Below are positions 1 to 43,568 of a stretch of 64,000 bases of DNA, one piece after another; positions within the stretch are counted from its first letter, which is position 1, and every line of letters begins with the position of its first letter. A program made the translations under genes and the position numbers. The stretch covers positions 6,873,209 to 6,937,208 of the forward strand of contig OZ036000.1 in NCBI GenBank assembly GCA_964035015.1, in the 5' to 3' direction. The notes beneath the pieces were generated by a model, which saw only the letters and a program-made list of their open reading frames with translations, was not told where the DNA came from and did not search any database. The stretch is from Corallium rubrum. Taxonomy: Eukaryota; Cnidaria; Anthozoa; Scleralcyonacea; Coralliidae.

Positions 1-3000
1 GTGTAAAAATATTCTACCTTATCCAAAACACCACTTTTTGGGAAAATATAGAAAGTTGAAAAAATGGCCAAAATGAATAGGGTCCCCCCTTTACATTTTT
101 TCCGATTTTTCAGGTTTTGAAATAAGGCTAAACTATGGCCATTTAGCACGAATAAGTCTCTCTGGCTGCTACAGAAGGTGTAAAAAGCCTCTACATGATC
201 CAAAACACGATTTTTTTAATCAAATATCGGAAGTTGAAAAAATGGCCAAAATGAATAGGGTCCCCCCTTTACATTTTTTCCGATTTTTCAACTTTTGAAA
301 TAAGGCTAAACTATGGCCATTTAGCACGAATAAGTCTCTCTCGCTGCTACAGAAGGTGTAAAAAGATTCTACCTTATCGAAAACACCACTTTTTGGGCAA
401 ATATAGAAAGTTGAAAAAATGGCCAAAATGAATAGGGTCCCCCCTTTACATTTTTTCCGATTTTTCAACTTTTGAAATAAGGCTAAACTATGGCCATTTA
501 GCAAGAATATGTCTCTCTCGCTGCTACAGAAGTTGTACAAAGCCTCTATGTGATCCACAAGACCACTTTTTGAGCAAATATGGAAAGTTGAAAAAATGGC
601 CAAAATGAATAGGGTCCCCCCTTTACATTTTTTCCGATTTTTCAACTTTTGAAATAAGGCTAAACTATGGCCATTTAGCACGAATAAGTCTCTCTCGCTG
701 CTACAGAAGGTGTAAAAAGCCTCTACCTGATCCAAAACACGATTTTTTGATCAAATATCGGAAGTTGAAAAAATGGCCAAAATGAATAGGGTCCCCCCTT
801 TACATTTTTTCCGATTTTTCAACTTTTGAAATAAGGCTAAACTATGGCCATTTAGCACGAATAAGTCTCTCTCGCTGCTACAGAAGGTGTAAAAAGCCTC
901 CACCTGATCCAAAACACGATTTTTTGATCAAATATCGGAAGTTGAAAAAATGGCCAAAATGAATAGGGTCCCCCCTTTACATTTTTTCCGATTTTTCAGG
1001 TTTTGAAATAAGGCTAAACTATGGCCATTTAGCACGAATAAGTCTCTCTCGCTGCTACAGAAGGTGTAAAAATATTCTACCTTATCCAAAACACCACTTT
1101 TTGGGCAAATATAGAAAGTTGAAAAAATGGCCAAAATGAATAGGGTCCCCCCTTTACATTTTTTCCGATTTTTCAACTTTTGAAATAAGGCTAAACTATG
1201 GCCATTTAGCACGAATAAGTCTCTCTGGCTGCTACAGAAGGTGTAAAAAGCCTCTACATGATCCAAAACACGATTTTTTTTATCAAATATCGGAAGTTGA
1301 AAAAATGGCCAAAATGAATAGGGTCCCCCCTTTACATTTTTTCCGATTTTTCAACTTTTGAAATAAGGCTAAACTATGGCCATTTAGCACGAATAAGTCT
1401 CTCTCGCTGCTACAGAAGGTGTAAAAAGCCTCTATCTGATCCAAAAGACCACTTTTTGAGCAAATATGGAAAGTTGAAAAAATGGCCAAAATGAATAGGG
1501 TCCCCCCTTTACATTTTTTCCGATTTTTCAACTTTTGAAATAAGGCTAAACTATGGCCATTTAGAAGGAATATGTCTCTCTCGCTGCTACAGAAGTTGTA
1601 CAAAGCCTCTATGTGATCCACAAGACCACTTTTTTAGCAAATATGGAAAGTTGAAAAAATGGCCAAAATGAATAGGGTCCCCCCTTTACATTTTTTCCGA
1701 TTTTTCAGGGTTTTGAAATAAGGCTAAACTATGGCCATTTAGCACGAATAAGTCTCTCTCGCTGCTACAGAAGGTGTAAAAAGATTCTACCTGATTCAAT
1801 ACACCATTTTTTGACGAAATATCGAAAGTTGAAAGAAATGACCAAAATGAATAGGGTCCCCCCTTTACATTTTTTCGGATTTTTCAACTTTTGAAATAAG
1901 GCTAAACTATGGCCATTTAGCACGAATAAGTCTCTCTCGCTGCTACAGAAGGTGTAAAAAGATTCTACCTGACTCAATACACCATTTTTTGACGAAATAT
2001 CGAAAGTTGAAAGAAATGACCAAAATGAATAGGGTCCCCCCTTTACATTTTTTCCGATTTTTCAACTTTTGAAATAAGGCTAAACTATGGCCATTTAGCA
2101 CGAATAAGTCTCTCTCGCTGCTACAGAAGGTGTAAAAAGATTCTACCTGACTCAATACACCATTTTTTGACGAAATATCGAAAGTTGAAAGAAATGACCA
2201 AAATGAATAGGGTCCCCCCTTTACATTTTTTCGGATTTCTCAACTTTTGAAATAAGGCTAAACTATGGCCATTTAGCACGAATATGTCTCTCTCGCTGCT
2301 ACAGAAGGTGTAAAAAGCCTCTATCTGATCCAAAAGACCACTTTTTGAGCAAATATGGAAAGTTGAAAAAATGGCCAAAATGAATACGGTCCCCCCTTTA
2401 CATTTTTTCCGAATTTTCAACTTTTGAAATAAGGCTAAACTATGGCCATTTAGCACGAATATGTCTCTCTCGCTGCTACAGAAGTTGTACAAAGCCTCTA
2501 TGTGATCCACAAGACCACTTTTTTAGCAAATATGGAAAGTTGAAAAAATGGCCAAAATGAATAGGGTCCCCCCTTTACATTTTTTCCGATTTTTCAACTT
2601 TTGAAATAAGGCTAAACTATGGCCATTTAGCACGAATAAGTCTCTCTCGCTGCTACAGAAGGTGTAAAAAGATTCTACCTGATTCAATACACCATTTTTT
2701 GACGAAATATCGAAAGTTGAAAGAAATGACCAAAATGAATAGGGTCCCCCCTTTACATTTTTTCCGATTTTTCAACTTTTGAAATAAGGCTAAACCATGG
2801 CCATTTAGCACGAATAAGTCTCTCTCGCTGCTACAGAAGGTGTAAAAAGATTCTACCTGACTCAATACACCATTTTTTGACGAAATATCGAAAGTTGAAA
2901 GAAATGACCAAAATGAATAGGGTCCACCCTTTACATTTTTTCCGATTTTTCAACTTTTGAAATAAGGCTAAACCATGGCCATTTAGCACGAATAAGTCTC

Positions 3001-5502
3001 TCTCGCTGCTACAGAAGGTGTAAAAAGATTCTACCTGACTCAATACACCATTTTTTGACGAAATATCGAAAGTTGAAAGAAATGACCAAAATGAATAGGG
3101 TCCCCCCTTTACATTTTTTCCGATTTTTCAACTTTTGAAATAAGGCTAAACTATGGCCATTTAGCACGAATATGTCTCTCTCGCTGCTACAGAAGGTGTA
3201 AAAAGCCTCTATCTGATCCAAAAGACCACTTTTTGAGGAAATATGGAAAGTTGAAAAAATGGCCAAAATGAATAGGGTCCCCCCTTTACATTTTTTCCGA
3301 ATTTTCAACTTTTGAAATAAGGCTAAACTATGGCCATTTAGCAGGAATATGTCTCTCTCGCTGCTACAGAAGTTGTACAAAGCCTCTATGTGATCCACAA
3401 GACCACTTTTTGAGCAAATATGGAAAGTTGAAAAAATGGCCAAAATGAATACGGTCCCCCCTTTACATTTTTTCCGATTTTTCAACTTTTGAAATAAGGC
3501 TAAACTATGGCCATTTAGCACGAATAAGTCTCTCTCGCTGCTACAGAAGGTGTAAAAAGATTCTACCTGATTCAATACACCATTTTTTGACGAAATATCG
3601 AAAGTTGAAAGAAATGACCAAAATGAATAGGGTCCCCCCTTTACATTTTTTCCGATTTTTCAACTTTTGAAATAAGGCTAAACCATGGCCATTTAGCACG
3701 AATAAGTCTCTCTCGCTGCTACAGAAGGTGTAAAAAGATTCTACCTGACTCAATACACCATTTTTTGACGAAATATCGAAAGTTGAAAGAAATGACCAAA
3801 ATGAATAGGGTCCCCCCTTTACATTTTTTCCGATTTTTCAACTTTTGAAATAAGGCTAAACTATGGCCATTTAGCACGAATAAGTCTCTCTCGCTGCTAC
3901 AGAAGGTGTAAAAAGATTCTACCTGATTCAATACACCATTTTTTGACGAAATATCGAAAGTTGAAAGAAATGACCAAAATGAATAGGGTCCCCCCTTTAC
4001 ATTTTTTCGGATTTTTCAACTTTTGAAATAAGGCTAAACTATGGCCATTTAGCACGAATAAGTCTCTCTCGCTGCTACAGAAGGTGTAAAAAGATTCTAC
4101 CTGATTCAATACACCATTTTTTGACGAAATATCAAAAGTTGAAAAAATGACCAAAATGAATAGGGTCCCCCCCTTTACCTTTTTTCGGATTTTTCAACTT
4201 TTGAAATAAGGCTAAACTATGGCCATTTAGCACGAATAAGTCTCTCTCGCTGCTACAGAAGGTGTAAAAAGCCTCTATCTGATCCAAAAGACCACTTTTT
4301 GAGCAAATATGGAAAGTTGAAAAAATGGCCAAAATGAATACGGTCCCCCCTTTACATTTTTTCCGATTTTTCAACTTTTGAAATAAGGCTAAACTATGGC
4401 CATTTAGCAGGAATATGTCTCTCTCGCTGCTACAGAAGTTGTACAAAGCCTCTATGTGATCCACAAGACCACTTTTTTAGCAAATATGGAAAGTTGAAAA
4501 AATGGCCAAAATGAATAGGGTCCCCCCTTTACATTTTTTCCGATTTTTCAACTTTTGAAATAAGGCTAAACTATGGCCATTTAGCACGAATAAGTCTCTC
4601 TCGCTGCTACAGAAGGTGTAAAAAGCCTCTACCTGATCCAAAACACCATTTTTTTAATCAAATATCGAAAGTTGAAAAAATGGCCAAAATGAATACGGTC
4701 CGCCCTTTACATTTTTTCCGATTTTTCAACTTTTGAAATAAGGCTAAACTATGGCCATTTAGCAGGAATAAGTCTCTCTCGCTGCTACAGAAGGTGTAAA
4801 AAGCCTCCACCTGATCCAAAACACGATTTTTTGATCAAATATCGGAAGTTGAAAAAATGGCCAAAATGAATAGGGTCCCCCCTTTACATTTTTTCCGATT
4901 TTTCAGGTTTTGAAATAAGGCTAAACTATGGCCATTTAGCACGAATAAGTCTCTCTCGCTGCTACAGAAGGTGTAAAAAGATTCTACCTTATCCAAAACA
5001 CCATTTTTTTAATCAAATATCGAAAGTTGAAAAAATGGCCAAAATGAATAGGGTCCCCCCTTTACATTTTTTCCGATTTTTCAACTTTTGAAATAAGGCT
5101 AAACTATGGCCATTTAGCACGAATAAGTCTCTCTCGCTGCTACAGAAGGTGTAAAAAGATTCTACCTTATCGAAAACACCACTTTTTGGGCAAATATAGA
5201 AAGTTGAAAAAATGGCCAAAATGAATAGGGTCCCCCCTTTACATTTTTTCCGATTTTTCAACTTTTGAAATAAGGCTAAACTATGGCCATTTAGCACGAA
5301 TAAGTCTCTCTCGCTGCTACAGAAGGTGTAAAAAGATTCTACCTTATCGAAAACACCACTTTTTGGGCAAATATAGAAAGTTGAAAAAATGGCCAAAATG
5401 AATAGGGTCCCCCCTTTACATTTTTTCCGATTTTTCAACTTTTGAAATAAGGCTAAACTATGGCCATTTAGCACGAATAAGTCTCTCTCGCTGCTACAGA
5501 AG

Positions 5503-7140
5503 GTGTAAAAATATTCTACCTTATCCAAAACACCACTTTTTGGGCAAATATAGAAAGTTGAAAAAATGGCCAAAATGAATAGGGTCCCTCCTTTACATTT
5601 TTTCCGATTTTTCAGGTTTTGAAATAAGGCTAAACTATGGCCATTTAGCACGAATAAGTCTCTCTGGCTGCTACAGAAGGTGTAAAAAGCCTCTACATGA
5701 TCCAAAACACGATTTTTTTAATCAAATATCGGAAGTTGAAAAAATGGCCAAAATGAATAGGGTCCCCCCTTTACATTTTTTCCGATTTTTCAACTTTTGA
5801 AATAAGGCTAAAGTATGGCCATTTAGCACGAATAAGTCTCTCTCGCTGCTACAGAAGGTGTAAAAAGATTCTACCTTATCGAAAACACCACTTTTTGGGC
5901 AAATATAGAAAGTTGAAAAAATGGCCAAAATGAATAGGGTCCCCCCTTTACATTTTTTCCGATTTTTCAACTTTTGAAATAAGGCTAAACTATGGCCATT
6001 TAGCAAGAATATGTCTCTCTCGCTGCTACAGAAGTTGTACAAAGCCTCTATGTGATCCACAAGACCACTTTTTGAGCAAATATGGAAAGTTGAAAAAATG
6101 GCCAAAATGAATAGGGTCCCCCCTTTACATTTTTTCCGATTTTTCAACTTTTGAAATAAGGCTAAACTATGGCCATTTAGCACGAATAAGTCTCTCTCGC
6201 TGCTACAGAAGGTGTAAAAAGCCTCTACCTGATCCAAAACACCATTTTTTTAATCAAATATCGAAAGTTGAAAAAATGGCCAAAATGAATACGGTCCCCC
6301 CTTTACATTTTTTCCGATTTTTCAACTTTTGAAATAAGGCTAAACTATGGCCATTTAGCAGGAATAAGTCTCTCTCGCTGCTACAGAAGGTGTAAAAAGC
6401 CTCCACCTGATCCAAAACACGATTTTTTGATCAAATATCGGAAGTTGAAAAAATGGCCAAAATGAATAGGGTCCCCCCTTTACATTTTTTCCGATTTTTC
6501 AACTTTTGAAATAAGGCTAAACTATGGCCATTTAGCACGAATAAGTCTCTCTCGCTGCTACAGAAGGTGTAAAAAGATTCTACCTTATCCAAAACACCAT
6601 TTTTTTAATCAAATATCGAAAGTTGAAAAAATGGCCAAAATGAATAGGGTCCCCCCTTTACATTTTTTCCGATTTTTCAACTTTTGAAATAAGGCTAAAC
6701 TATGGCCATTTAGCACGAATAAGTCTCTCTCGCTGCTACAGAAGGTGTAAAAAGATTCTACCTTATCGAAAACACCACTTTTTGGGCAAATATAGAAAGT
6801 TGAAAAAATGGCCAAAATGAATAGGGTCCCCCCTTTACATTTTTTCCGATTTTTCAACTTTTGAAATAAGGCTAAACTATGGCCATTTAGCACGAATAAG
6901 TCTCTCTCGCTGCTACAGAAGGTGTAAAAATATTCTACCTTATCCAAAACACCACTTTTTGGGCAAATATAGAAAGTTGAAAAAATGGCCAAAATGAATA
7001 GGGTCCCCCCTTTACATTTTTTCCGATTTTTCAGGTTTTGAAATAAGGCTAAACTATGGCCATTTAGCACGAATAAGTCTCTCTGGCTGCTACAGAAGGT
7101 GTAAAAAGCCTCTACATGATCCAAAACACGATTTTTTTTA
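5503..7140. repeat. Higher-order block of the satellite (copy 2 of 3)
   Basis: This multi-monomer block matches 11,342-12,980 at an offset of exactly 5,839 bp. Shared rare variants include GGGTCCCTCC at about 5,581 and 11,420, AAAGTATGGCC at about 5,811 and 11,650, and CTCTCTGGCTGC near 5,665 and 11,504. A related but less exact block begins at base 1 (offset 5,502). The offsets correspond to about 31 and 33 monomers. One clear difference is a CAACTTTTG/CAGGTTTTG change near 6,500. Confidence 0.85.
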
Positions 7141-10100
7141 TCAAATATCGGAAGTTGAAAAAATGGCCAAAATGAATAGGGTCCCCCCTTTACATTTTTT
7201 CCGATTTTTCAACTTTTGAAATAAGGCTAAACTATGGCCATTTAGCACGAATAAGTCTCTCTCGCTGCTACAGAAGGTGTAAAAAGCCTCTATCTGATCC
7301 AAAACACCACTTTTTGAGCAAATATGGAAAGTTGAAAAAATGGCCAAAATGAATAGGGTCCCCCCTTTACATTTTTTCCGATTTTTCAACTTTTGAAATA
7401 AGGCTAAACTATGGCCATTTAGCAGGAATATGTCTCTCTCGCTGCTACAGAAGTTGTACAAAGCCTCTATGTGATCCACAAGACCACTTTTTTAGCAAAT
7501 ATGGAAAGTTGAAAAAATGGCCAAAATGAATAGGGTCCCCCCTTTACATTTTTTCCGATTTTTCAACTTTTGAAATAAGGCTAAACTATGGCCATTTAGC
7601 ACGAATAAGTCTCTCTCGCTGCTACAGAAGGTGTAAAAAGCCTCTTCCTGATTCAAAACACCATTTTTTGACGAAATATCGAAAGTTGAAAGAAATGACC
7701 AAAATGAATAGGGTCCCCCCTTTACATTTTTTCCGATTTTTCAACTTTTGAAATAAGGTTAAACCATGGCCATTTAGCACGAATAAGTCTCTCTCGCTGC
7801 TACAGAAGGTGTAAAAAGATTCTACCTGACTCAATACACCATTTTTTGACGAAATATCGAAAGTTGAAAGAAATGACCAAAATGAATAGGGTCCCCCCTT
7901 TACATTTTTTCCGATTTTTCAACTTTTGAAATAAGGCTAAACTATGGCCATTTAGCACGAATAAGTCTCTCTCGCTGCTACAGAAGGTGTAAAAAGATTC
8001 TACCTGACTCAATACACCATTTTTTGACGAAATATCGAAAGTTGAAAGAAATGACCAAAATGAATAGGGTCGCCCCTTTACATTTTTTCCGATTTTTCAA
8101 CTTTTGAAATAAGGCTAAACTATGGCCATTTAGCACGAATAAGTCTCTCTCGCTGCTACAGAAGGTGTAAAAAGCCTCTACCTGATTCAAAACACCATTT
8201 TTTGACGAAATATCAAAAGTTGAAAAAATGACCAAAATGAATAGGGTCCCCCCTTTACATTTTTTCCGATTTTTCAACTTTTGAAATAAGGCTAAACTAT
8301 GGCCATTTAGCACGAATAAGTCTCTCTCGCTGCTACAGAAGGTGTAAAAAGCCTCTTCCTGATTCAAAACACCATTTTTTGACGAAATATCAAAAGTTGA
8401 AAAAATGACCAAAATGAATAGGGTCCCCCCCTTTACATTTTTTCCGATTTTTCAACTTTTGAAATAAGGCTAAACTATGGCCATTTAGCAGGAATAAGTC
8501 TCTCTCGCTGCTACAGAAGGTGTAAAAAGCCTCTACCTGATCCAAAACACCACTTTTTTGAGCAAATATCGAAAGTTGAAAAAATGGCCAAAATTTATAT
8601 GGTCCCCCCTTTTACATTTTTTCCGATTTTTCAACTTTTGAAATAAGGCTAAACTATGGCCATTTAGCACGAATAAGTCTCTCTCGCTGCTACAGAAGGT
8701 GTAAAAAGCCTCTACCTGATCCAAAACACGATTTTTTGATCAAATATCGAAAGTTGAAAAAATGGCCAAAATGAATAGGGTCCCCCCTTTACATTTTTTC
8801 CGATTTTTCAACTTTTGAAATAAGGCTAAACTATGGCCATTTAGCAGGAATAAGTCTCTCTCGCTGCTACAGAAGGTGTAAAAAGCCTCTACCTGATCCA
8901 AAACACGATTTTTTGATCAAATATCGGAAGTTGAAAAAATGGCCAAAATGAATAGGGTCCCCCCTTTACATTTTTTCCGATTTTTCAGGTTTTGAAATAA
9001 GGCTAAACTATGGCCATTTAGCACGAATAAGTCTCTCTCGCTGCTACAGAAGGTGTAAAAAGATTCTACCTTATCCAAAACACCATTTTTTAATCAAATA
9101 TCGAAAGTTGAAAAAATGGCCAAAATGAATAGGGTCCCCCCTTTACATTTTTTCCGATTTTTCAACTTTTGAAATAAGGCTAAACTATGGCCATTTAGCA
9201 CGAATAAGTCTCTCTCGCTGCTACAGAAGGTGTAAAAAGATTCTACCTTATCGAAAACACCACTTTTTGGGCAAATATAGAAAGTTGAAAAAATGGCCAA
9301 AATGAATAGGGTCCCCCCTTTACATTTTTCCGGATTTTTCAACTTTTGAAATAAAGCTAAACTATGGCCATTTAGCACGAATAAGTCTCTCTCGCTGCTA
9401 CAGAAGGTGTAAAAAGATTCTACCTGATCAAAACACCACTTTTTGGCAAATATAGAAAGTTGAAAAAATGGCCAAAAGGAATAGGGTCCCCCCTTTACAT
9501 TGTTCCGGATTTTTCAACTTTTGAAATAAAGCTAAACTATGGCCATTTAGCACGAATAAGTCTCTCTCGCTGCTACAGAAGGTGTAAAAAGATTCTACCT
9601 GATCCAAAACACCATTTTTTGACGCAAATATCGAAAGTTGAAAAAATGGCCAAAATGAATAGGGTCCCCCTTTACATTTTTTCCGATTTTTCAACTTTTG
9701 AAATAAGGCTAAACTATGGCCATTTAGCACGAATAAGTCTCTCTCGCTGCTACAGAAGGTGTAAAAAGCCTCTACCTGATCCAAAACACGATTTTTTTTA
9801 TCAAATATCGGAAGTTGAAAAAATGAACAAAATGAATAGGGTCCCCCCTTTACATTTTTTCCGATTTTTCAGGTTTTGACATAAGGCTAAACTATGGCCA
9901 TTTAGCACGAATAAGACTCTCTCGCTGCTACAGAAGGTGTAAAAAGCCTCTACCTTATCCAAAACACCACTTTTTGAGAAATATGGAAAGTTGAAAAAAT
10001 GGCCAAAATGAATAGGGTCCCCCCTTTACATTTTTTCCGATTTTTCAACTTTTGAAATAAGGCTAAACTATGGCCATTTAGCACGAATAAGTCTCTCTCG

Positions 10101-11341
10101 CTGCTACAGAAGGTGTAAAAAGCCTCTACCTGATTCAAAACACCATTTTTGAGCAAATATCGAAAGTTGAAAAAATGGCCAAAATGAATAGGGTCCCCCC
10201 TTTACATTTTTTCCGATTTTTCAACTTTTGAAATAAGGCTAAACTATGGCCATTTAGCACGAATAAGTCTCTCTCGCTGCTACAGAAGGTGTAAAAAGCC
10301 TCTACCTGATCCAAAACACCATTTTTTTAATCAAATATCGAAAGTTGAAAAAATGGCCAAAATGAATACGGTCCCCCTTTACATTTTTTCCGATTTTTCA
10401 ACTTTTGAAATAAGGCTAAACTATGGCCATTTAGCACGAATAAGTCTCTCTCGCTGCTACAGAAGGTGTAAAAAGCCTCCACCTGATCCAAAACACCATT
10501 TTTTGATCAAATATCGGAAGTTGAAAAAATGGCCAAAATGAATAGGGTCCCCCCTTTACATTTTTTCCGATTTTTCACTTTTGAAATAAGGCTAAACTAT
10601 GGCCATTTAGCACGAATAAGTCTCTCTCGCTGCTACAGAAGGTGTAAAAAGATTCTACCTGATCCAAAACACCATTTTTTGATCAAATATCGAAAGTTGA
10701 AAAAATGGCCAAAATGAATAGGGTCCCCCCTTTACATTTTTTCCGATTTTTCAACTTTTGAAATAAGGCTAAACTATGGCCATTTAGCACGAATAAGTCT
10801 CTCTCGCTGCTACAGAAGGTGTAAAAAGATTCTACCTTATCGAAAACACCACTTTTTGGGCAAATATCGAAAGTTGAAAAAATGGCCAAAATGAATAGGG
10901 TCCCCCCTTTACATTTTTTCCGATTTTTCCACTTTTGAAATAAGGCTAAACTATGGCCATTTAGCACGAATAAGTCTCTCTCGCTGCTACAGAAGGTGTA
11001 AAAAGATTCTACCTTATCGAAAACACCACTTTTTGGGCAAATATAGAAAGTTGAAAAAATGGCCAAAATGAATAGGGTCCCCCCTTTACATTTTTTCCGA
11101 TTTTTCAACTTTTGAAATAAGGCTAAACTATGGCCATTTAGCACGAATAGTCTCTCTCGCTGCTACAGAAGGTGTAAAAACCTTATCGAAAACACCACTT
11201 TTTGAGCAAATATGGAAAGTTGAAAAAATGGCCAAAATGAATAGGGTCCCCCCTTTACATTTTTTCCGATTTTTCAACTTTTGAAATAAGGCTAAACTAT
11301 GGCCATTTAGCACGAATAAGTCTCTCTCGCTGCTACAGAAG

Positions 11342-12980
11342 GTGTAAAAATATTCTACCTTATCCAAAACACCACTTTTTGGGCAAATATAGAAAGTTGA
11401 AAAAATGGCCAAAATGAATAGGGTCCCTCCTTTACATTTTTTCCGATTTTTCAGGTTTTGAAATAAGGCTAAACTATGGCCATTTAGCACGAATAAGTCT
11501 CTCTGGCTGCTACAGAAGGTGTAAAAAGCCTCTACATGATCCAAAACACGATTTTTTTAATCAAATATCGGAAGTTGAAAAAATGGCCAAAATGAATAGG
11601 GTCCCCCCTTTACATTTTTTCCGATTTTTCAACTTTTGAAATAAGGCTAAAGTATGGCCATTTAGCACGAATAAGTCTCTCTCGCTGCTACAGAAGGTGT
11701 AAAAAGATTCTACCTTATCGAAAACACCACTTTTTGGGCAAATATAGAAAGTTGAAAAAATGGCCAAAATGAATAGGGTCCCCCCTTTACATTTTTTCCG
11801 ATTTTTCAACTTTTGAAATAAGGCTAAACTATGGCCATTTAGCAAGAATATGTCTCTCTCGCTGCTACAGAAGTTGTACAAAGCCTCTATGTGATCCACA
11901 AGACCACTTTTTGAGCAAATATGGAAAGTTGAAAAAATGGCCAAAATGAATAGGGTCCCCCCTTTACATTTTTTCCGATTTTTCAACTTTTGAAATAAGG
12001 CTAAACTATGGCCATTTAGCACGAATAAGTCTCTCTCGCTGCTACAGAAGGTGTAAAAAGCCTCTACCTGATCCAAAACACCATTTTTTTAATCAAATAT
12101 CGAAAGTTGAAAAAATGGCCAAAATGAATACGGTCCCCCCTTTACATTTTTTCCGATTTTTCAACTTTTGAAATAAGGCTAAACTATGGCCATTTAGCAG
12201 GAATAAGTCTCTCTCGCTGCTACAGAAGGTGTAAAAAGCCTCCACCTGATCCAAAACACGATTTTTTGATCAAATATCGGAAGTTGAAAAAATGGCCAAA
12301 ATGAATAGGGTCCCCCCTTTACATTTTTTCCGATTTTTCAGGTTTTGAAATAAGGCTAAACTATGGCCATTTAGCACGAATAAGTCTCTCTCGCTGCTAC
12401 AGAAGGTGTAAAAAGATTCTACCTTATCCAAAACACCATTTTTTTAATCAAATATCGAAAGTTGAAAAAATGGCCAAAATGAATAGGGTCCCCCCTTTAC
12501 ATTTTTTCCGATTTTTCAACTTTTGAAATAAGGCTAAACTATGGCCATTTAGCACGAATAAGTCTCTCTCGCTGCTACAGAAGGTGTAAAAAGATTCTAC
12601 CTTATCGAAAACACCACTTTTTGGGCAAATATAGAAAGTTGAAAAAATGGCCAAAATGAATAGGGTCCCCCCTTTACATTTTTTCCGATTTTTCAACTTT
12701 TGAAATAAGGCTAAACTATGGCCATTTAGCACGAATAAGTCTCTCTCGCTGCTACAGAAGGTGTAAAAATATTCTACCTTATCCAAAACACCACTTTTTG
12801 GGCAAATATAGAAAGTTGAAAAAATGGCCAAAATGAATAGGGTCCCCCCTTTACATTTTTTCCGATTTTTCAGGTTTTGAAATAAGGCTAAACTATGGCC
12901 ATTTAGCACGAATAAGTCTCTCTGGCTGCTACAGAAGGTGTAAAAAGCCTCTACATGATCCAAAACACGATTTTTTTTAT
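11342..12980. repeat. Higher-order block of the satellite (copy 3 of 3)
   Basis: Near-identical to 5,503-7,140 at a 5,839-bp offset, including single-base variants that are rare elsewhere in the array. Similarity becomes ordinary after about 12,990, where monomers carry CACCAATAGG and a seven-C tract. Upstream, at about 11,148-11,180, the monomer carries small deletions that copy 2 lacks, which marks the left limit of the block. Confidence 0.85.
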
Positions 12981-14525: not shown

Positions 14526-17500
14526 CTACAGAAGGTGTAAAAAGATTCTACCTGACTCAATACACCATTTTTTGACGAAATATCGAAAGTTGAAAGAAAT
14601 GACCAAAATGAATAGGGTCCCCCCTTTACATTTTTTCCGATTTTTCAACTTTTGAAATAAGGCTAAACTATGGCCATTTAGCAGGAATATGTCTCTCTCG
14701 CTGCTACAGAAGTTGTACAAAGCCTCTATGTGATCCACAAGACCACTTTTTTAGCAAATATGGAAAGTTGAAAAAATGGCCAAAATGAATAGGGTCCCCC
14801 CTTTACATTTTTTCCGATTTTTCAGGTTTTGAAATAAGGCTAAACTATGGCCATTTAGCACGAATAAGTCTCTCTCGCTGCTACAGAAGGTGTAAAAAGA
14901 TTCTACCTTATCCAAAACACCATTTTTTTAATCAAATATCGAAAGTTGAAAAAATGGCCAAAATGAATAGGGTCCCCCCTTTACATTTTTTCGTGTTTTT
15001 CAACGTTTGAAATAAGGCTAAACTATGGCCATTTAGCACGAATAAGTCTCTCTCGCTGCTATAGAAGGTGTAAAAAGCCTCTACCTGATTCAAAACACCA
15101 TTTTTTGACGAAATATCAAAAGTTGAAAAAATGACCAAAATGAATAGGGTCCCCCCCTTTACCTTTTTTCGGATTTTTCAACTTTTGAAATAAGGGTAAA
15201 CTACGGCCATTTAGAACGAATAAGTCTCTCTCGCTGCTACAGAAGGTGTAAAAAGATTCTACCTGATTCAAAACACCATTTTTTGACGAAATATCAAAAG
15301 TTGAAAAAATGACCAAAATGAATAGGGTCCCCCCTTTACCTTTTTTCGGATTTTTCAACTTTTGAAATAAGGCTAAACTATGGCCATTTAGCACAAATAA
15401 GTCTCTCTCGCTGCTACAGAAGGTGTAAAAAGCCTGTATCTGATCAAAAATAACATTTTTTGAGCAAATATTGAAAGTTGAAAAAATGGCCAAAATGAAT
15501 AGGGTCCCCCCTTTACATTTTTTCCGATTTTTCAACTTTTGAAATAAGGCTAAACTATGGCCATTTAGCACGAATAAGTCTCTCTCGCTGCTACAGAAGG
15601 TGTAAAAAGATTCTACCTGATTCAATACACCATTTTTTGACGAAATATCGAAAGTTGAAAAAAATGACCAAAATGAATAGGGTCCCCCCTTTACATTTTT
15701 TCCGATTTTTCAACTTTTGAAATAAGGCTAAACTATGGCCATTTAGCACGAATATGTCTCTCTCGCTGCTACAGAAGGTGTAAAAAGCTTCTATCTGATC
15801 CAAAAGACCACTTTTTGAGCGAATATGGAAAGTTGAAAAAATGGCTAAAATGAATAGGGTCCCCCCTTTACATTTTTTCCGATTTTTCAACTTTTGAAAT
15901 AAGGCTAAACTATGGCCATTTAGCAGGAATATGTCTCTCTCGCTGCTACAGAAGTTGTACAAAGCCTCTATGTGATCCACAAGACCACTTTTTTAGCAAA
16001 TATGGAAAGTTGAAAAAATGGCCAAAATGAATAGGGTCCCCCCTTTACATTTTTTCCGATTTTTCAACTTTTGAAATAAGGCTAAACTATGGCCATTTAG
16101 CACGAATAAGTCTCTCTCGCTGCTACAGAAGGTGTAAAAAGATTCTACCTGATTCAATACACCATTTTTTGACGAAATATCGAAAGTTGAAAGAAATGAC
16201 CAAAATGAATAGGGTCCCTCCTTTACATTTTTTCCGATTTTTCAACTTTTGAAATAAGGCTAAACTATGGCCATTTAGCACGAATAAGTCTCTCTCGCTG
16301 CTACAGAAGGTGTAAAAAGATTCTACCTGACTCAATACACCATTTTTTGACGAAATATCGAAAGTTGAAAGAAATGACCAAAATGAATAGGGTCCCCCCT
16401 TTATATTTTTTCCGATTTTTCAACTTTTGAAATAAGGCTAAACTATGGCCATTTAGCAGGAATATGTCTCTCTCGCTGCTACAGAAGTTGTACAAAGCCT
16501 CTATGTGATCCACAAGACCACTTTTTTAGCAAATATGGAAAGTTGAAAAAATGGCCAAAATGAATAGGGTCCCCCCTTTACATTTTTTCCGATTTTTCAG
16601 GTTTTGAAATAAGGCTAAACTATGGCCATTTAGCACGAATAAGTCTCTCTCGCTGCTACAGAAGGTGTAAAAAGATTCTACCTTATCCAAAACACCATTT
16701 TTTTAATCAAATATCGAAAGTTGAAAAAATGGCCAAAATGAATAGGGTCCCCCCTTTACATTTTTTCGTGTTTTTCAACGTTTGAAATAAGGCTAAACTA
16801 TGGCCATTTAGCACGAATAAGTCTCTCTCGCTGCTATAGAAGGTGTAAAAAGCTTCTACCTGATTCAAAACACCATTTTTTGACGAAATATCAAAAGTTG
16901 AAAAAATGACCAAAATGAATAGGGTCCCCCCTTTACCTTTTTTCGGATTTTTCAACTTTTGAAATAAGGCTAAACTATGGCCATTTAGAACGAATAAGTC
17001 TCTCTCGCTGCTACAGAAGGTGTAAAAAGATTCTACCTCATTCAAAACACCATTTTTTGACGAAATATCAAAAGTTGAAAAAATGACCAAAATGAATAGG
17101 GTCCCCCCTTTACCTTTTTTCGGATTTTTCAACTTTTGAAATAAGGCTAAACTATGGCCATTTAGCACAAATAAGTCTCTCTCGCTGCTACAGAAGGTGT
17201 AAAAAGCCTGTATCTGATCCAAAAGACCACTTTTTGAGCAAATATTGAAAGTTGAAAAAATGGCCAAAAGGAATAGGGTCCCCCCTTTACATTGTTCCGG
17301 ATTTTTCAACTTTTGAAATAAGGCTAAACTATGGCCATTTAGCACGAATAAGTCTCTCTCGCTGCTACAGAAGGTGTAAAAAGATTCTACCTGATTCAAT
17401 ACACCATTTTTTGACGAAATATCGAAAGTTGAAAGAAATGACCAAAATGAATAGGGTCCCCCCTTTACATTTTTTCCGATTTTTCAACTTTTGAAATAAG

Positions 17501-18075
17501 GCTAAACTATGGCCATTTAGCACGAATATGTCTCTCTCGCTGCTACAGAAGGTGTAAAAAGCTTCTATCTGATCCAAAAGACCACTTTTTGAGCGAATAT
17601 GGAAAGTTGAAAAAATGGCTAAAATGAATAGGGTCCCCCCTTTACATTTTTTCCGATTTTTCAACTTTTGAAATAAGGCTAAACTATGGCCATTTAGCAG
17701 GAATATGTCTCTCTCGCTGCTACAGAAGTTGTACAAAGCCTCTATGTGATCCACAAGACCACTTTTTAAGCAAATATGGAAAGTTGAAAAAATGGCCAAA
17801 ATGAATAGGGTCCCCCCTTTACATTTTTTCCGATTTTTCAACTTTTGAAATAAGGCTAAACTATGGCCATTTAGCACGAATATGTCTCTCTCGCTGCTAC
17901 AGAAGGTGTAAAAAGCCTCTATCTGATCCACAAGACCACTTTTTTAGCAAATATGGAAAGTTGAAAAAATGGCCAAAATGAGAATAGGGTCCCCCCTTTA
18001 CATTTTTTCCGATTTTTCAACTTTTGAAATAAGGCTAAACTATGGCCATTTAGCAGGAATATGTCTCTCTCGCTG
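14526..18075. repeat. Tandem pair of a ~1,775-bp (10-monomer) higher-order unit
   Basis: Monomer order and rare variants at 14,526-16,300 recur at 16,301-18,075. Matching landmarks include TTTTTTCGTGTTTTTCAACG near 14,988 and 16,764, and a CTATAGAAGG variant near 15,060 and 16,836. The step is 1,774-1,777 bp, about ten monomers. The fidelity at this offset is higher than between neighbouring monomers, which is the definition of a higher-order repeat. Confidence 0.8.
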
Positions 18076-18158
18076 CTACAGATGGTGTAAAAAGCCTCTA
18101 TCTGATCCAAAAGACCACTTTTTGAGCAAATATCGAAAGTTGAAAAAATGGCCAAAAT

Positions 18159-20790
18159 GTTTTGTTGGATTTTTCAACTTTTGAAAGAAGGCTAAAGTAT
18201 GGCCATTTAGCACCAATAGGTCTCTCGCGCTGCTACAGAAGGTGTAAAAAGATTCTACCTGATTCAATACACCATTTTTTGACGAAATATCGAAAGTTGA
18301 AAGAAATGACCAAAATGAATAGGGTCCCCCCTTTACATTTTTTCCGATTTTTCAACTTTTGAAATAAGGCTAAACTATGGCCATTTAGCACGAATATGTC
18401 TCTCTCGCTGCTACAGAAGGTGTAAAAAGCTTCTATCTGATCCAAAAGACCACTTTTTGAGCGAATATGGAAAGTTGAAAAAATGGCTAAAATGAATAGG
18501 GTCCCCCCTTTACATTTTTTCCGATTTTTCAACTTTTGAAATAAGGCTAAACTATGGCCGTTTAGCAGGAATATGTCTCTCTCGCTGCTACAGAAGTTGT
18601 ACAAAGCCTCTATGTGATCCACAAGACCACTTTTTGAGCAAATATGGAAAGTTGAAAAAATGGCCAAAATGAATAGGGTCCCCCCTTTACATTTTTTCCG
18701 ATTTTTCAACTTTTGAAATAAGGCTAAACTATGGCCATTTAGCAGGAATAATGTCTCTCTCGCTGCTACAGAAGTTGTACAAAGCCTCTATGTGATCCAC
18801 AAGACCACTTTTTTAGCAAATATGGAAAGTTGAAAAAATGGCCAAAATGAATAGGGTCCCCCCTTTACAATTTTTCCGATTTTTCAACTTTTGAAATAAG
18901 GCTAAACTATGGCCATTTAGCAGGAATATGTCTCTCTCGCTGCTACAGATGGTGTAAAAAGCCTCTATCTGATCCAAAAGACCACTTTTTGAGCAAATAT
19001 CGAAAGTTGAAAAAATGGCCAAAATGTTTTGTTGGATTTTTCAACTTTTGAAATAAGGCTAAACTATGGCCATTTAGCACGAATAAGTCTCTCTCGCTGC
19101 TACAGAAGGTGTAAAAAGATTCTACCTGATTCAATACACCATTTTTTGACGAAATATCGAAAGTTGAAAAAAATGACCAAAATGAATAGGGTCCCCCCTT
19201 TACATTTTTTCGGATTTTTCAACTTTTGAAATAAGGCTAAACTATGGCCATTTAGCACGAATATGTCTCTCTCGCTGCTACAGAAGGTGTAAAAAGCCTC
19301 TATCTGATCCAAAAGACGACTTTTTGAGCAAATATCGAAAGTTGAAAAAATGACCAAAATGAATAGGGTCCCCCCTTTACATTTTTTCCGATTTTTCAAC
19401 TTTTGAAATAAGGCTAAACTATGGCCATTTAGCACGAATATGTCTCTCTCGCTGCTACAGAAGGTGTAAAAAGCTTCTATCTGATCCAAAAGACCACTTT
19501 TTGAGCGAATATGGAAAGTTGAAAAAATGGCTAAAATGAATAGGGTCCCCCCTTTACATTTTTTCCGATTTTTCAACTTTTGAAATAAGGCTAAACTATG
19601 GCCGTTTAGCAGGAATATGTCTCTCTCGCTGCTACAGAAGTTGTACAAAGCCTCTATGTGATCCACAAGACCACTTTTTGAGCAAATATGGAAAGTTGAA
19701 AAAATGGCCAAAATGAATAGGGTCCCCCCTTTACATTTTTTCCGATTTTTCAACTTTTGAAATAAGGCTAAACTATGGCCATTTAGCACGAATAAGTCTC
19801 TCTCGCTGCTACAGAAGTTGTAAAAAGCCTCTATGTGATCCACAAGACCACTTTTTTAGCAAATATGGAAAGTTGAAAAAATGGCCAAAATGAATAGGGT
19901 CCCCCCTTTACAATTTTTCCGATTTTTCAACTTTTGAAATAAGGCTAAACTATGGCCATTTAGCAGGAATATGTCTCTCTCGCTGCTACAGATGGTGTAA
20001 AAAGCCTCTATCTGATCCAAAAGACCACTTTTTGAGCAAATATCGAAAGTTGAAAAAATGGCCAAAATGTTTTGTTGGATTTTTCAACTTTTGAAATAAG
20101 GCTAAACTATGGCCATTTAGCACCAATAGGTCTCTCGCGCTGCTACAGAAGGTGTAAAAAGATTCTACCTGATTCAATACACCATTTTTTGACGAAATAT
20201 CGAAAGTTGAAAAAAATGACCAAAATGAATAGGGTCCCCCCTTTACATTTTTTCGGATTTTTCAACTTTTGAAATAAGGCTAAACTATGGCCATTTAGCA
20301 CGAATATGTCTCTCTCGCTGCTACAGAAGGTGTAAAAAGCCTCTATCTGATCCAAAACACCACTTTTTGGGCAAATATCGAAAGTTGAAAAAATGGCCAA
20401 AATGAATAGGGTCCCCCCTTTACATTTTTTCCGATTTTTCAACTTTTGAAATAAGGCTAAACTATGGCCATTTAGCACGAATATGTCTCTCTCGCTGCTA
20501 CAGAAGGTGTAAAAAGCCTCTACCTGATCCAAAACACCATTTTTTTAAATCAAATATCGAAAGTTGAAAAAATGGCCAAAATGAATAGGGTCCCCCCTTT
20601 ACATTTTTTCCGATTTTTCAACTTTTGAAATAAGGCTAAACTATGGCCATTTAGCACGAATAAGTCTCTCTCGCTGCTACAGAAGGTGTAAAAAGACTCT
20701 ACCTGATCAAAAATAACATTTTTTGCGCAAATATCGAAAGTTGAAAAAATGGCAAAAATGTTTTGTTGGATTTTTAAACTTTTGAAATAA
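18159..20790. repeat. Five- and six-monomer higher-order units marked by a shortened monomer
   Basis: Monomers near 18,159, 19,025, 20,068 and 20,757 lack about 21 bp: AAAATG is followed by TTTTGTTGGATTTTTC instead of the C-rich block and the AT-rich stretch. The first three are spaced 867 and 1,043 bp apart. These fit 4 or 5 full monomers plus one of about 157 bp. The 18,159 and 20,068 copies are followed by the same CACCAATAGGTCTCTCGCGC variant. Confidence 0.8.
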
Positions 20791-23700
20791 GGCTAAACTA
20801 TGGCCATTTAGCACGAATAAGTCTCTCTCGCTGCTACAGAAGGTGTAAAAAGCCTCTACCTGATCCAAAACACGATTTTTTGATCAAATATCGGAAGTTG
20901 AAAAAATGGCCAAAATGAATAGGGTCCCCCCTTTACATTTTTTCCGATTTTTCAGGTTTTGAAATAAGGCTAAACTATGGCCATTTAGCACGAATAAGTC
21001 TCTCTCGCTGCTACAGAAGGTGTAAAAAGATTCTACCTTATCCAAAACACCATTTTTTTAATCAAATATCGAAAGTTGAAAAAATGGCCAAAATGAATAG
21101 GGTCCCCCCTTTACATTTTTTCCGATTTTTCAACTTTTGAAATAAGGCTAAACTATGGCCATTTAGCACGAATAAGTCTCTCTCGCTGCCACAGAAGGTG
21201 TAAAAAGATTCTACCTGACTCAATACACCATTTTTTGACGAAATATCGAAAGTTGAAAGAAATGACCAAAATGAATAGGGTCCCCCCTTTACATTTTTTC
21301 CGATTTTTCAACTTTTGAAATAAGGCTAAACTATGGCCATTTAGCACGAATATGTCTCTCTCGCTGCTACAGAAGGTGTAAAAAGCCTCTATCTGATCCA
21401 CAAGACCACTTTTTGAGCAAATATGGAAAGTTGAAAAAATGGCCAAAATGAATAGGGTCCCCCCTTTACATTTTTTCCGATTTTTCAACTTTTGAAATAA
21501 GGCTAAACTATGGCCATTTAGCAGGAATATGTCTCTCTCGCTGCTACAGAAGTTGTACAAAGCCTCTATGTGATCCACAAGACCACTTTTTTAGCAAATA
21601 TGGAAAGTTGAAAAAATGGCCATTTAGCACCAATAGGTCTCTCGCGCTGCTACAGAAGGTGTAAAAAGATTCTACCTGATTCAATACACCATTTTTTGAC
21701 GAAATATCGAAAGTTGAAAGAAATGACCAAAATGAATAGGGTCCCCCCTTTACATTTTTTCCGATTTTTCAGGTTTTGAAATAAGGCTAAACTATGGCCA
21801 TTTAGCACGAATAAGTCTCTCTAGCTGCTACAGAAGGTGTAAAAAGCCTCTACATGATCCAAAACACGATTTTTTTTATCAAATATCGGAAGTTGAAAAA
21901 ATGGCCAAAATGAATAGGGTCCCCCCCTTTACATTTTTTCCGATTTTTCAACTTTTGAAATAAGGCTAAACTATGGCCATTTAGCACCAATAGGTCTCTC
22001 TCGCTGCTACAGAAGGTGTAAAAAGATTCTACCTGCTTCAAAACACCATTTTTTTTACCAAATATCGAAAGTTGAAAAAAATTACCAAAATGAATAGGGT
22101 CCCCCCTTTACATTTTTTCCGATTTTTCAACTTTTGAAATAAGGCTAAACTATGGCCATTTAGCAAGAATATGTCTCTCTCGCTGCTACAGAACTTGTAC
22201 AAAGCCTCTATGTGATCCACAAGACCACTTTTTGAGCAAATATGGAAAGTTGAAAAAATGGCCAAAATGAATAGGGTCCCCCCTTTACATTTTTTCCGAT
22301 TTTTCAACTTTTGAAATAAGGCTAAACTATGGCCATTTAGCACGAATAAGTCTCTCTCGCTGCTACAGAAGGTGTAAAAAGCCTCTACCTGATCCAAAAC
22401 ACCATTTTTTAATCAAATATCGAAAGTTGAAAAAATGGCCAAAATGAATAGGGTCCCCCCTTTACATTTTTTCCGATTTTTCAACTTTTGAAATAAGGCT
22501 AAACTATGGCCATTTAGCACGAATAAGTCTCTCTCGCTGCTACAGAAGGTGTAAAAAGCCTCTACCTGATCCAAAACACCATTTTTTTAATCAAATATCG
22601 AAAGTTGAAAAAATGGCCAAAATGAATAGGGTCCCCCCTTTACATTTTTTCCGATTTTTCAACTTTTGAAATAAGGCTAAACTATGGCCATTTAGCAGGA
22701 ATAAGTCTCTCTCGCTGCTACAGAAGGTGTAAAAAGCCTCTACCTGATCCAAAACACGATTTTTTGATCAAATATCGGAAGTTGAAAAAATGGCCAAAAT
22801 GAATAGGGTCCCCCCTTTACATTTTTTCCGATTTTTCAGGTTTTGAAATAAGGCTAAACTATGGCCATTTAGCACGAATAAGTCTCTCTCGCTGCTACAG
22901 AAGGTGTAAAAAGATTCTACCTTATCCAAAACACCACTTTTTGGGCAAATATCGAAAGTTGAAAAAATGGCCAAAATGAATAGGGTCCCCCCTTTACATT
23001 TTTTCCGATTTTTCAACTTTTGAAATAAGGCTAAACTATGGCCATTTAGCACGAATATGTCTCTCTCGCTGCTACAGAAGGTGTAAAAAGCCTCTATCTG
23101 ATCCAAAAGACCACCTTTTGAGCAAATATGGAAAGTTGAAAAAATGGCCAAAATGAATACGGTCCCCCCTTTACATTTTTTCCGATTTTTCAACTTTTGA
23201 AATAAGGCTAAACTATGGCCATTTAGCACGAATAAGTCTCTCTCGCTGCTACAGAAGGTGTAAAAAGATTCTACCTGATTCAATACACCATTTTTTGACG
23301 AAATATCGAAAGTTGAAAAAAATGACCAAAATGAATAGGGTCCCCCCTTTACATTTTTTCGGTTTTTCAACTTTTGAAATAAGGCTAAACTATGGCCATT
23401 TAGCAGGAATATGTCTCTCTCGCTGCTACAGAAGGTGTAAAAAGCCTCTATCTGATCCAAAAGACGACTTTTTGAGCAAATATCGAAAGTTGAAAAAATG
23501 GCCAAAATGAATAGTGTCCCCCCTTTACATTTTTTCCGATTTTTCAACTTTTGAAATAAGGCTAAACTATGGCCATTTAGCACGAATAAGTCTCTCTCGC
23601 TGCTACAGAAGGTGTAAAAAGCCTCTACCTGATCCAAAACACCATTTTTTTTTATATCAAATATCGAAAGTTGAAAAAATGGCCAAAATGAATAGGGTCC

Positions 23701-25695
23701 CCCCTTTACATTTTTTCCGATTTTTCAACTTTTGAAATAAGGCTAAACTATGGCCATTTAGCACGAATAAGTCTCTCTCGCTGCTACAGAAGGTGTAAAA
23801 AGCCTCTACCTGATCCAAAACACCATTTTTTTAATCAAATATCGAAAGTTGAAAAAATGACCAAAATGAATAGGGTCCCCCCTTTACATTTTTTCGGTTT
23901 TTCAACTTTTGAAATAAGGCTAAACTATGGCCATTTAGCAGGAATATGTCTCTCTCGCTGCTACAGAAGGTGTAAAAAGCCTCTATCTGATCCAAAAGAC
24001 GACTTTTTGAGCAAATATCGAAAGTTGAAAAAATGGCCAAAATGAATAGGGTCCCCCCTTTACATTTTTTCCGATTTTTCAACTTTTGAAATAAGGCTAA
24101 ACTATGGCCATTTAGCAGGAATATGTCTCTCTCGCTGCTACAGAAGTTGTACAAAGCCTCTATGTGATCCACAAGACCACTTTTTGAGCAAATATGAAAA
24201 GTTGAAAAAATGGCCAAAATGAATAGGGTCCCCCCTTTACATTTTTTCCGATTTTTCAACTTTTGAAATAAGGCTAAACTATGGCCATTTAGCACGAATA
24301 AGTCTCTCTCGCTGCTACAGAAGGTGTAAAAAGCCTCTTCCTGATCAAAAATAACATTTTTTGAGCAAATATCGAAAGTTGAAAAAATGGCCAAAATGAA
24401 TAGGGTCCCCCCTTTACATTTTTTCCGATTTTTCAACTTTTGAAATAAGGCTAAACTATGGCCATTTAGCACGAATAAGTCTCTCTCGCTGCTACAGAAG
24501 GTGTAAAAAGCCTCTACCTGATCCAAAACACGATTTTTTGATCAAATATCGGAAGTTGAAAAAATGGCCAAAATGAATAGGGTCCCCCCTTTACATCTTT
24601 TCCGATTTTTCAGGTTTTGAAATAAGGCTAAACTATGGCCATTTAGCACGAATAACTCTCTCTCGCTGCTACAGAAGGTGTAAAAAGATTCTACCTTATC
24701 CAAAACACCACTTTTTGAGCAAATATGGAAAGTTGAAAAAATGGCCAAAATGAATAGGGTCCCCCCTTTACATTTTTTCCGATTTTTCAACTTTTGAAAT
24801 AAGGCTAAACTATGGCCATTTAGCACGAATATGTCTCTCTCGCTGCTACAGAAGGTGTAAAAAGCCTCTATCTGATCCAAAAGACCACTTTTTGAGCAAA
24901 TATGGAAAGTTGAAAAAATGGCCAAAATGAATAGGGTCCCCCCTTTACATTTTTTCCGATTTTTCAACTTTTGAAATAAGGCTAAACTATGGCCATTTAG
25001 TAGGAATATGTCTCTCTCGCTGCTACAGAAGTTGTACAAAGCCTCTATGTGATCCACAAGACCACTTTTTGAGCAAATATGAAAAGTTGAAAAAATGGCC
25101 AAAATGAATAGGGTCCCCCCTTTACATTTTTTCCGATTTTTCAACTTTTGAAATAAGGCTAAACTATGGCCATTTAGCACGAATAAGTCTCTCTCGCTGC
25201 TACAGAAGGTGTAAAAAGCCTCTACCTGATCCAAAACACCATTTTTTTAATCAAATATCGAAAGTTGAAAAAATGGCCAAAATGAATATGGTCCCGCCTT
25301 TACATTTTTTCCGATTTTTCAACTTTTGAAATAAGGCTAAACTATGGCCATTTAGCACGAATAAGTCTCTCTCGCTGCTACAGAAGGTGTAAAAAGCCTC
25401 TACCTGATCCAAAACACGATTTTTTGATCAAATATCGGAAGTTGAAAAAATGGCCAAAATGAATAGGGTCCCCCCTTTACATCTTTTCCGATTTTTCAGG
25501 TTTTGAAATAAGGCTAAACTATGGCCATTTAGCACGAATAACTCTCTCTCGCTGCTACAGAAGGTGTAAAAAGATTCTACCTTATCGAAAACACCACTTT
25601 TTGGGCAAATATAGAAAGTTGAAAAAATGGCCAAAATGAATAGGGTCCCCCCTTTACATTTTTTCCGATTTTTCAGGTTTTGAAGTAAGGCTAAA

Positions 25696-27122
25696 AGTGC
25701 ACCTAACCCCAAATATTTTTTTTTCTAAAATCAAATTACTGTGGTTTGTTGAGTACCTCAGTCCAAAATTTTTTTGATTTGGGTGAATTCTCGAGTTTCT
25801 ATGCCCTGTTGAAATGTCGAAAATCGCCGACATTTTGGTTCACGGCCGAGTTCTCAAAAGGCATGGGAACCAGCACATTTATGACGTAGATTCCGGAACG
25901 CCTAGATTGCTTGTTCACTTTTAACAATACTGACTAGTATTTTGTGGGATGTCTACTTTTCTCTATCATGAGAAGTGAGAACAGGTACGTGCGTTTGATT
26001 TTTAATTTTTCTGATCATATAAACTAAAGCTATACCCTTCAGGCAGTTATACGTCGCGAATGACAAATTTCTGATCTTAATGCTATTGTATTTTGTACGC
26101 ATTGTCAGGTATAAATACTATACCGCTCCATAGCTTCTATATCTACAGACTCTTTCTCTAGAACTAGGATGAGCCAAAAACATAAGATGTTCCTTCAAGT
26201 CAGCCGTGGTTTACTATCTGGAAAGCTGTGCGTGTAGCCCTGAAGGGAAAGCCGTGCGAAGTGAATATCAAGCTGCGATTCTGCGGATATCAAAGCCGTG
26301 CGAGAGCGCCGAGAACGTTCGTCTATTGTTATGGTTTGTCTTCTCTTGCTTATTTATTATTCTAATATCTTTCATTAAATCTGATTCTACACTAGTTTAT
26401 GCTTCTAAAGTTTTATGTATATGTCAACAACGTTCTTTAATAATGTTTAATAAAAATATGATGAAATTGGATATTTGTTTGTTTTCATTTGCGTGAATTA
26501 TTCTTTATACATTACTATTTATTATATTTCGGCGGTTTCTCCGTCTGTTGGATTTGTTACTTTGTTGATATCGTAACTATTGCTACAAGAATAGTATCCG
26601 ATGTATAGTATATGTCTATAAACTCTTGCAAGCAGTCCAAAGACAACGAAGACAGCCAAGTCAGCTGAGAAACGTTTGGTGAAAAATATATACGAAGTGA
26701 TTTCATACTTCAAAGCTGAAAGCGAAAATTCTTTGAATAAAATAATTATATTGGTCTCCGTGCTTCCAGTATTCTTTTGGACATCTCACTGTCTTAAGCT
26801 TTTCACAAAATTGCCAGAAGACAGAACTCAGAAGCATATTTTTAACATCTAACTGTGCGAATTGAAATAAGAATATCAAGTGATGGTATCAAGCACTAAT
26901 AATCGGGCGTTCCGGAATCTACGTCACAAATGTGCTAGTTCCGTGCCTTTTGAAACTTTGCTTGCGACTCGGCCGTGAACGAAAATGTCGGCGATTTTCG
27001 ACATTTCAACAGGGCATAGAAACTCGAGAATTCATCCAAATCAAAAAAATTTTGGACTGAGGTACTCAACAAACCACAGTAATTTGATTTTAGAAAAAAA
27101 AATATTTGGGGTTAGGTGCACT
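25696..27122. mobile_element. Long-TIR DNA element inserted in the satellite, 5-bp target duplication
   Basis: The element starts AGTGCACCTAACCCC and ends GGGGTTAGGTGCACT. The terminal inverted repeats extend about 207 bp on the left (to about 25,902) and about 217 bp on the right (from about 26,906), with only a few mismatches and one short indel. The satellite sequence CTAAA is duplicated on both sides (25,691-25,695 and 27,123-27,127), and removing the element restores a normal monomer. The interior, about 1 kb, has only ORFs under 100 codons and no transposase motif I recognise, so it is probably non-autonomous. A five-base duplication fits several superfamilies. I cannot assign one from the termini alone. 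Confidence 0.9.
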
Positions 27123-28130
27123 CTAAACTATGGCCATTTAGCACGAATAAGTCTCTCTCGCTGCTACAGAAGGTGTAAAAAGATTCTACCTTATCCAAAA
27201 CACCACTTTTTGGGCAAATATAGAAAGTTGAAAAAATGGCCAAAATGAATAGGGTCCCCCCTTTACATTTTTTCGTGTTTTTCAACGTTTGAAATAAGGC
27301 TAAACTATGGCCATTTAGCACGAATAAGTCTCTCTCGCTGCTACAGAAGGTGTAAAAAGGCTCTATGTGATCCAAAAGACCACTTTTTGAGCAAATGTCG
27401 AAAGTTGAAAAAATGACCAAAATGAATAGGGTCCCCCCTTTACATTTTTTCGGATTTTTCAACTTTTGAAATTAGGCCAAACTATGGCCATTTAGCACGA
27501 ATAAGTCTCTCTCGCTGCTACAGAAGGTGTAAAAAGGCTCTATGTGATCCAAAAGACCACTTTTTTAGCAAATGTCGAAAGTTGAAAAAATGACCAAAAT
27601 GAATAGGGTCCCCCCTTTACATTTTTTCGGATTTTTCTAGTTTTGAAATTAGGTTAAACTATGGCCATTTAGCACGAATAAATCTCTCTCGCTGCTACAG
27701 AAGGTGTAAAAAGCCTCTACCTGATCCAAAACACCATTTTTTTACCAAATATCGAAAGTTGAAAAAATGGCCAAAATGAATAGGGTCCCCCCTTTACATT
27801 TTTTGCGATTTTTCAACTTTTGAAACAAGGTTAAACTATGGCCATTTAGCACGAATAAGTCTCTCTTGCTGCTACAGAATGTGTAAAAAGCCTCTACCTG
27901 ATCCAAAACACCATTTTTTGATCAAATATCGAAAGTTGAAAAAATGACCAAAATGAATAGGGTCCCCCCTTTACATTTTTTCTGATTTTTCAACTTTTGA
28001 AATAAGGCTAAACTATGGCCATTTATCACGAATACGTCTCTCTCGTTGCTACAAAAGGAGTAAAAAGCCTCTATCTGATCCAAAACACCATTCTTTGACC
28101 AAATATCGAAAGTTGAAGAAATGACCTTCA
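27123..28130. repeat. Satellite array continues to the right of the insertion
   Basis: The monomers resume in phase with the copy broken at 25,695 and in the same orientation, about 5.7 copies. Divergence rises to the right: GGCTAAAC becomes GGCCAAAC and GGTTAAAC, TTAGCACG becomes TTATCACG, and CTGCTACAGAAGGTG becomes TTGCTACAAAAGGAG at about 28,046. Confidence 0.95.
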
Positions 28131-28380
28131 CATTTTTTTTTCAACTTTTTAAATAATCTCAAATGTGAATATTTAGCCCAAATACAGCCTTCTCCTTCCC
28201 ACAGGTCTAAAAATGCTTTATTTGACATTTTTTAATCCTATTTCAAATGTTCGAAAAATGGTCAAAATCAGTCAAAAAGTAACATTTTAACTGATGTTTT
28301 CAAGTTTTTAAAAAAGGCTAAAATATTATAATTTAGCACAGCTTTTTTGCTATCGAAGGGACAAAAAGGCTTTATTCAGC
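28131..28380. repeat. Strongly diverged satellite edge monomers
   Basis: Recognisable monomer fragments remain in the right order: TTTTTCAACTTTTTAAATAA, then ATTTAGCCC for ATTTAGCAC, GGTCTAAAAATGC for GGTGTAAAAAG, and a second weak copy with AAAAAAGGCTAAAATAT, TTTAGCACAG and GGGACAAAAAGGC. Spacing is close to one monomer. This is the expected decay at the edge of an array. Confidence 0.75.
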
Positions 28381-28408
28381 CTATTGTAGCATTTGTTGTC
28401 CGTATTTG

Positions 28409-43541: not shown

Positions 43542-43568
43542 GCATATTCCTCTGATGAATCTGTGTCG

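Follow-up and report, generated by a model that had tools for sequence, protein, structure and literature searches.

A large head-to-tail 177-bp satellite array in Corallium rubrum, probably kept uniform by concerted evolution

Human alpha satellite has a monomer of 171 bp, and the centromere repeat of Arabidopsis a 178-bp monomer, as stated in a work on candidate centromere repeats (PMC4053949). The satellite described here lies in a window of 64,000 nucleotides of Corallium rubrum (the whole stretch of DNA that was analysed) and resembles both in monomer length and in head-to-tail order, but unlike alpha-type satellites it showed no canonical CENP-B box and no regular higher-order repeat. 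Dyad-symmetry satellites of Tribolium, as described in PMC13081366, likewise carry inverted repeats inside the monomer; the dyad of the present satellite, in comparison, spans about 70 bp, and anchor and profile searches of the window revealed no array copies in inverted orientation. A 188-nt coral satellite of Porites (PMC10236652) is similar in length, tandem and also partly palindromic, a likeness drawn from its description and not from aligned sequences. The Porites satellite is described as holding a palindromic telomeric sequence (PMC10236652), whereas the tiled 177-bp consensus contains no TTAGGG or CCCTAA. The satellites of Meloidogyne (PMC3694981) include monomers of about 170 bp and have conserved domains too, which are proposed there to act in array rearrangement. 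These are two short domains, one of them CENP-B-box-like, whereas the conserved part of the monomer studied here comprises 125 columns.

Tandem Repeats Finder (TRF) reports a period of 177 at 1–21622 (122.4 copies), 21616–25695 (23.0 copies) and 27123–28126 (5.7 copies). A profile built from 139 monomers gave 155 plus-strand matches from 1 to 28401 (counted if starting before 28500), with 143 at full length, two being degenerate copies, and a total of 26,931 bp, or 42% of the window. The original prediction of a large, nucleosome-length, head-to-tail satellite of about 177 bp, with some 150 copies over more than 40% of the window, is thus borne out. The extent of 1–28130 given for it needs a correction, since an insert breaks the array (Table 1). 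That the monomer is not a recognised published satellite gains a little from a search confined to the main text of a set of papers, in which six monomer strings had no match. Apart from the insert, the satellite runs in a single orientation (plus) across 1–28126; it starts mid-monomer at base 1 and therefore continues past the left end of the window. Monomers were split at a conserved anchor, which has 147 matches in the window (146 in the array, one at 50692); after six of the 145 intervals had been left out as being 230 bp or longer, the remaining 139 monomers displayed a mean pairwise identity of 0.933. Weak minus-strand profile matches coincide in position with the plus-strand ones. We attribute them to the monomer being self-complementary, because no minus-strand match to the anchor string exists at up to 2 errors. 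The array is real and large, and of a kind ordinary for eukaryotic genomes.

The insert is flanked by the target duplication CTAAA (25691–25695 and 27123–27127). Its inverted ends show no difference over at least 60 bp, which is as far as the exact check extended, and align over 207 and 217 bp with few mismatches, one 11-bp gap and one 1-bp gap. A second candidate duplication, GTGCAC, was set aside, being palindromic and located within the inverted ends. The 107-aa plus-strand open reading frame (ORF) of the insert had no Pfam match.

Table 1. Features of the 177-bp satellite array and its interruptions (window coordinates).
Feature	Position	Strand	Basis
Main block of the satellite (177-bp monomers, homogenised and in head-to-tail order)	1..25695	+	TRF, profile matches
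Four monomers with an identical 20-bp deletion (columns 5–24, loop side of dyad) among normal ones	stretch 18156..20913	+	
71-bp deletion near 21616, monomer column 169 joined to 64	21510..21729	+	TRF
1427-bp transposon-like insert	25696..27122	.	5-bp target duplication and inverted ends
Satellite continued, 5.7 copies	27123..28126	+	TRF
Two degenerate, incomplete monomers past the edge	28125–28265 (25.0 bits), 28282–28401 (24.0 bits)	+	profile

The sharp right edge that had been predicted is found as an abrupt step at 28126, but not as the end of the repeat family. Because two degenerate monomers run on to 28401, the edge marks a step from homogenised to degenerate copies. Within the array, the monomers with the 20-bp deletion lie at about 18160, 19027, 20070 and 20761. 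The dyad, or hairpin, of the monomer is touched by the 20-bp deletion, by the 71-bp deletion and, as judged by eye, by the edge junction. As a candidate breakpoint hotspot the hairpin was rejected: it makes up 40% of the monomer and contains the starting points of 11 among 24 distinct indel types, hence there is no clear enrichment.

Regarding the order of monomers, TRF scores a period of 355 above 177. A dimeric higher-order repeat was rejected, the mean identity at lag 2 (0.9306) being lower than the overall value (0.9326). The highest mean identity among lags 1–24 occurs at lag 10 (0.9437); lag values are slightly off where an anchor is missing, those intervals having been dropped. At lag 33, a run of 15 successive monomers is alike at 0.975 or more each. 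Lag identities, class order and self-matches revealed no regular higher-order repeat in the array, only irregular block duplications. Among the 14 longest matches with an identity of at least 96%, the block 1–3017 is duplicated at 11697–14712 (96.9%) and 17299–19026 at 18167–19892 (97.2%); blocks in this set reach about 3 kb, with 96–97% identity and several different spacings. Some monomer pairs are identical. Cut at 4 mismatches, a threshold of our choice, the 153 rows (the 155 matches minus the two degenerate copies, partial monomers kept) fall into 14 classes, with five large ones (A 31, B 22, C 20, D 42 and E 23 monomers). Class order along the array is irregular, and neighbouring classes are non-random, as block copying gives: their mutual information reaches 0.838, whereas 2000 shuffles average 0.426 and do not exceed 0.611.

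Differences between monomers are concentrated in one part of the sequence. Counting a column as variable if more than 10% of the 153 rows depart from consensus, gaps included, there are 27 variable columns, 20 of them in columns 107–158 and 7 in the other 125. Since this segment was picked from the data, the scan was run across all 52-column windows; none of 20,000 random placements reached 20 variable columns, a figure that overstates certainty, as linked columns are not independent. Variants present in at least 10 monomers are found in columns 107–158 in 25 of 31 cases (9.1 expected), while singletons are found there in 7 of 49 (14.4 expected; p 0.018 for depletion, one of several tests). 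There is no sign of a mutation hotspot in the segment; with many shared variants and few singletons, it carries shared, presumably old differences. The five main classes differ at 5–15 positions within columns 107–158 and at 0–3 outside, which is partly so by construction because the classes were defined on that segment, while the scan is free of this. Outside it, G in column 42 is shared by classes A, C and D and G in column 32 by A, D, E and F, a pattern that exchange between classes would produce. Other outside columns are class-bound as well, with A in column 173 in 30 of 31 monomers of class A and 5 of 5 of class F, and T in column 84 mainly in B and E. A work on Arabidopsis by Hall et al. 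from 2003 (PMC420371) reportedly has 'Conserved and variable domains' in its title.

The strong dyad comprises 70 bases from monomer column 156 to column 48. Across 143 monomers, its folding energy averages −22.6 kcal/mol and that of dinucleotide-block shuffles (10 per monomer) −9.3 kcal/mol, the monomers being copies of one another and thus not independent tests; one of the 143 is weaker than the mean of its own shuffles, and two other 70-base pieces fold at −13.6 and −9.5. For the consensus, the z-score of the fold is −4.71 under RNA parameters, where the phase was set so that the arms stay together, and −2.58 under DNA parameters in another phase. Perfect inverted repeats (arms of at least 8, loop up to 60) contain 0.182 of the bases in 1–25690, compared with 0.036 in 30438–64000 and, in 10 tiled shuffled monomers, a mean of 0.019 and a highest value of 0.10, so that inverted repeats in the array are above chance. 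At the 27 stem pairs, 3818 of 3998 cells are paired and the departures are one-sided, without any two-sided compensatory change (rows taken in order; a small number of cells thus extend across the insert or truncated monomers). The dyad arms hold 7 singletons, with 9.4 expected. The sole degenerate stretch tested, 28247–28316, has a folding energy of −7.7, which 58 of 300 shuffles match (41 of 300 for 28253–28312). Hence, the dyad is real, and no sign of selection maintaining it was found. A shorter palindrome around columns 53–75 looks, by eye, to be kept in one of the two degenerate copies. With the canonical CENP-B box motif in its usual form, no match was obtained on either strand of 1–28130; the best match in the tiled consensus, which may reflect chance, agrees at 7 of 9 fixed positions on the minus strand. 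An A/T dinucleotide period of about 10 bp is the strongest of 19 in the array and the third on the consensus, a weak signal with 40 of 2000 shuffles as high, uncorrected.

Based on this dataset, we favour, at a probability of roughly 70%, a conventional satellite array that is uniform by concerted evolution through the duplication of blocks and the exchange of short tracts. Blocks of several monomers would be duplicated by unequal exchange and replication slippage, and short-tract conversion may even out the other 125 columns across classes. The 52-column segment would stay class-specific either if conversion tracts rarely cover it or if the classes represent mixed, previously diverged arrays, and copies at the edge would decay because exchange fails to reach them. 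These data call for no sequence-specific cellular function, although the satellite may play a part in heterochromatin. However, neutral homogenisation alone leaves the clustering of diverged positions in one segment unexplained. The class-bound outside columns 173 and 84 and the depletion of singletons also count against this reading. Selection on the other 125 columns, through binding sites or nucleosome placement, would be expected to give the same picture. Concerted evolution as a mechanism does not exclude that the satellite is centromeric or that the array is local, which are questions of location and role.

To the right of the degenerate monomers, the window contains a foldback element (28405–28852) whose imperfect inverted ends measure about 130 bp. 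It is followed by a 48-bp minisatellite (29191–30437) whose consensus unit is a dyad as well (−13.8 kcal/mol, compared with −6.2 kcal/mol for shuffles, 1 of 300 of which did as well), and by a 16-bp minisatellite (32101–32734, 39.6 copies) that is G-rich on the plus strand. Retroelement pieces lie on the minus strand at 36411–39951 and 41088–43568. One of them has a DUF1759 match, together with RVT_1 and rve matches just under curated cut-offs, and is presumably BEL/Pao-like. The other, which we take to be Gypsy-like, is a single ORF matching reverse transcriptase, RNase H and the integrase zinc-binding domain; for its reverse-transcriptase piece, no relative was confirmed among 36 pattern matches in genome_contigs and 2 in viral_contigs. 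Farther on, there are an exon-like RING-finger ORF on the plus strand (49583–49864) and exon-like ORFs on the minus strand (55923–63768) with two 7tm_2 matches and a GPS match, the latter probably forming one adhesion-GPCR-like gene. The Pfam search covered 10 of the 102 ORFs of the window. No tRNA gene was found in the window.

The retroelement pieces and exon-like ORFs that occupy this surrounding sequence, some 8 to 36 kb past the edge, argue for a local, interstitial array at one or a few loci, a reading that we regard as possible, if tentative. An exact 27-mer had no match in the viral, bacterial and archaeal sequences of viral_contigs and genome_contigs, which says little given that scope, and the array runs off the window, which counts against a local array. 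That the satellite is the CENP-A centromere satellite of this species, with dyads in place of CENP-B boxes, appears unlikely. The monomer length of 177 bp, the strong dyad and inverted-repeat share reported above and the missing CENP-B box would fit. According to an earlier study summarised in PMC9070824, green monkey, chicken and fission yeast have centromeres that are enriched in dyads, whereas human centromeres, with their CENP-B boxes, lack dyads. On the other hand, dyads are no common feature of Drosophila melanogaster centromeres in the account of PMC9070824, and the length of a monomer says little about centromere identity, as it is not conserved among the candidate centromere repeats of PMC4053949. 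Moreover, just one array, at least 28 kb long, was observed, the nearby 48-bp minisatellite exceeds it in inverted-repeat share (0.356), and the exon-like ORFs with RING and 7tm_2 matches are located about 21 and 28 kb from the edge. Decidedly doubtful is a centromere-competent animal satellite in which the 70-bp dyad would replace recognition of a protein box and a variable 52-bp cassette would mark subfamilies, for example by chromosome.

It is highly improbable that the length of the array is an artefact of assembly: near-identical blocks are easily collapsed or expanded and identical monomer pairs occur, but the longest duplicated blocks among the matches listed differ at about 3% of bases, and the class order is irregular. 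A functional RNA hairpin (small-RNA source or ribozyme) is scarcely credible, for besides the consensus folds it has in its favour a MIR821 match of 41.7 bits (E 7.4e-06) from a permissive Rfam search of 1501 bases, whereas the MIR821 cut-off is 249 bits, every repeat is matched on both of its strands, as expected of any long hairpin, no Rfam match at gathering level was found in the window, the stem lacks two-sided compensatory change, and the degenerate stretch folds no clearly better than shuffles.

If the satellite is abundant, its monomer would serve as a FISH and ChIP probe for this genome; if it is local, the array is an ordinary one. The combination of an even 125-column part with a class-specific 52-column part makes it a clean case for weighing exchange tracts against selection in the shaping of satellite monomers.
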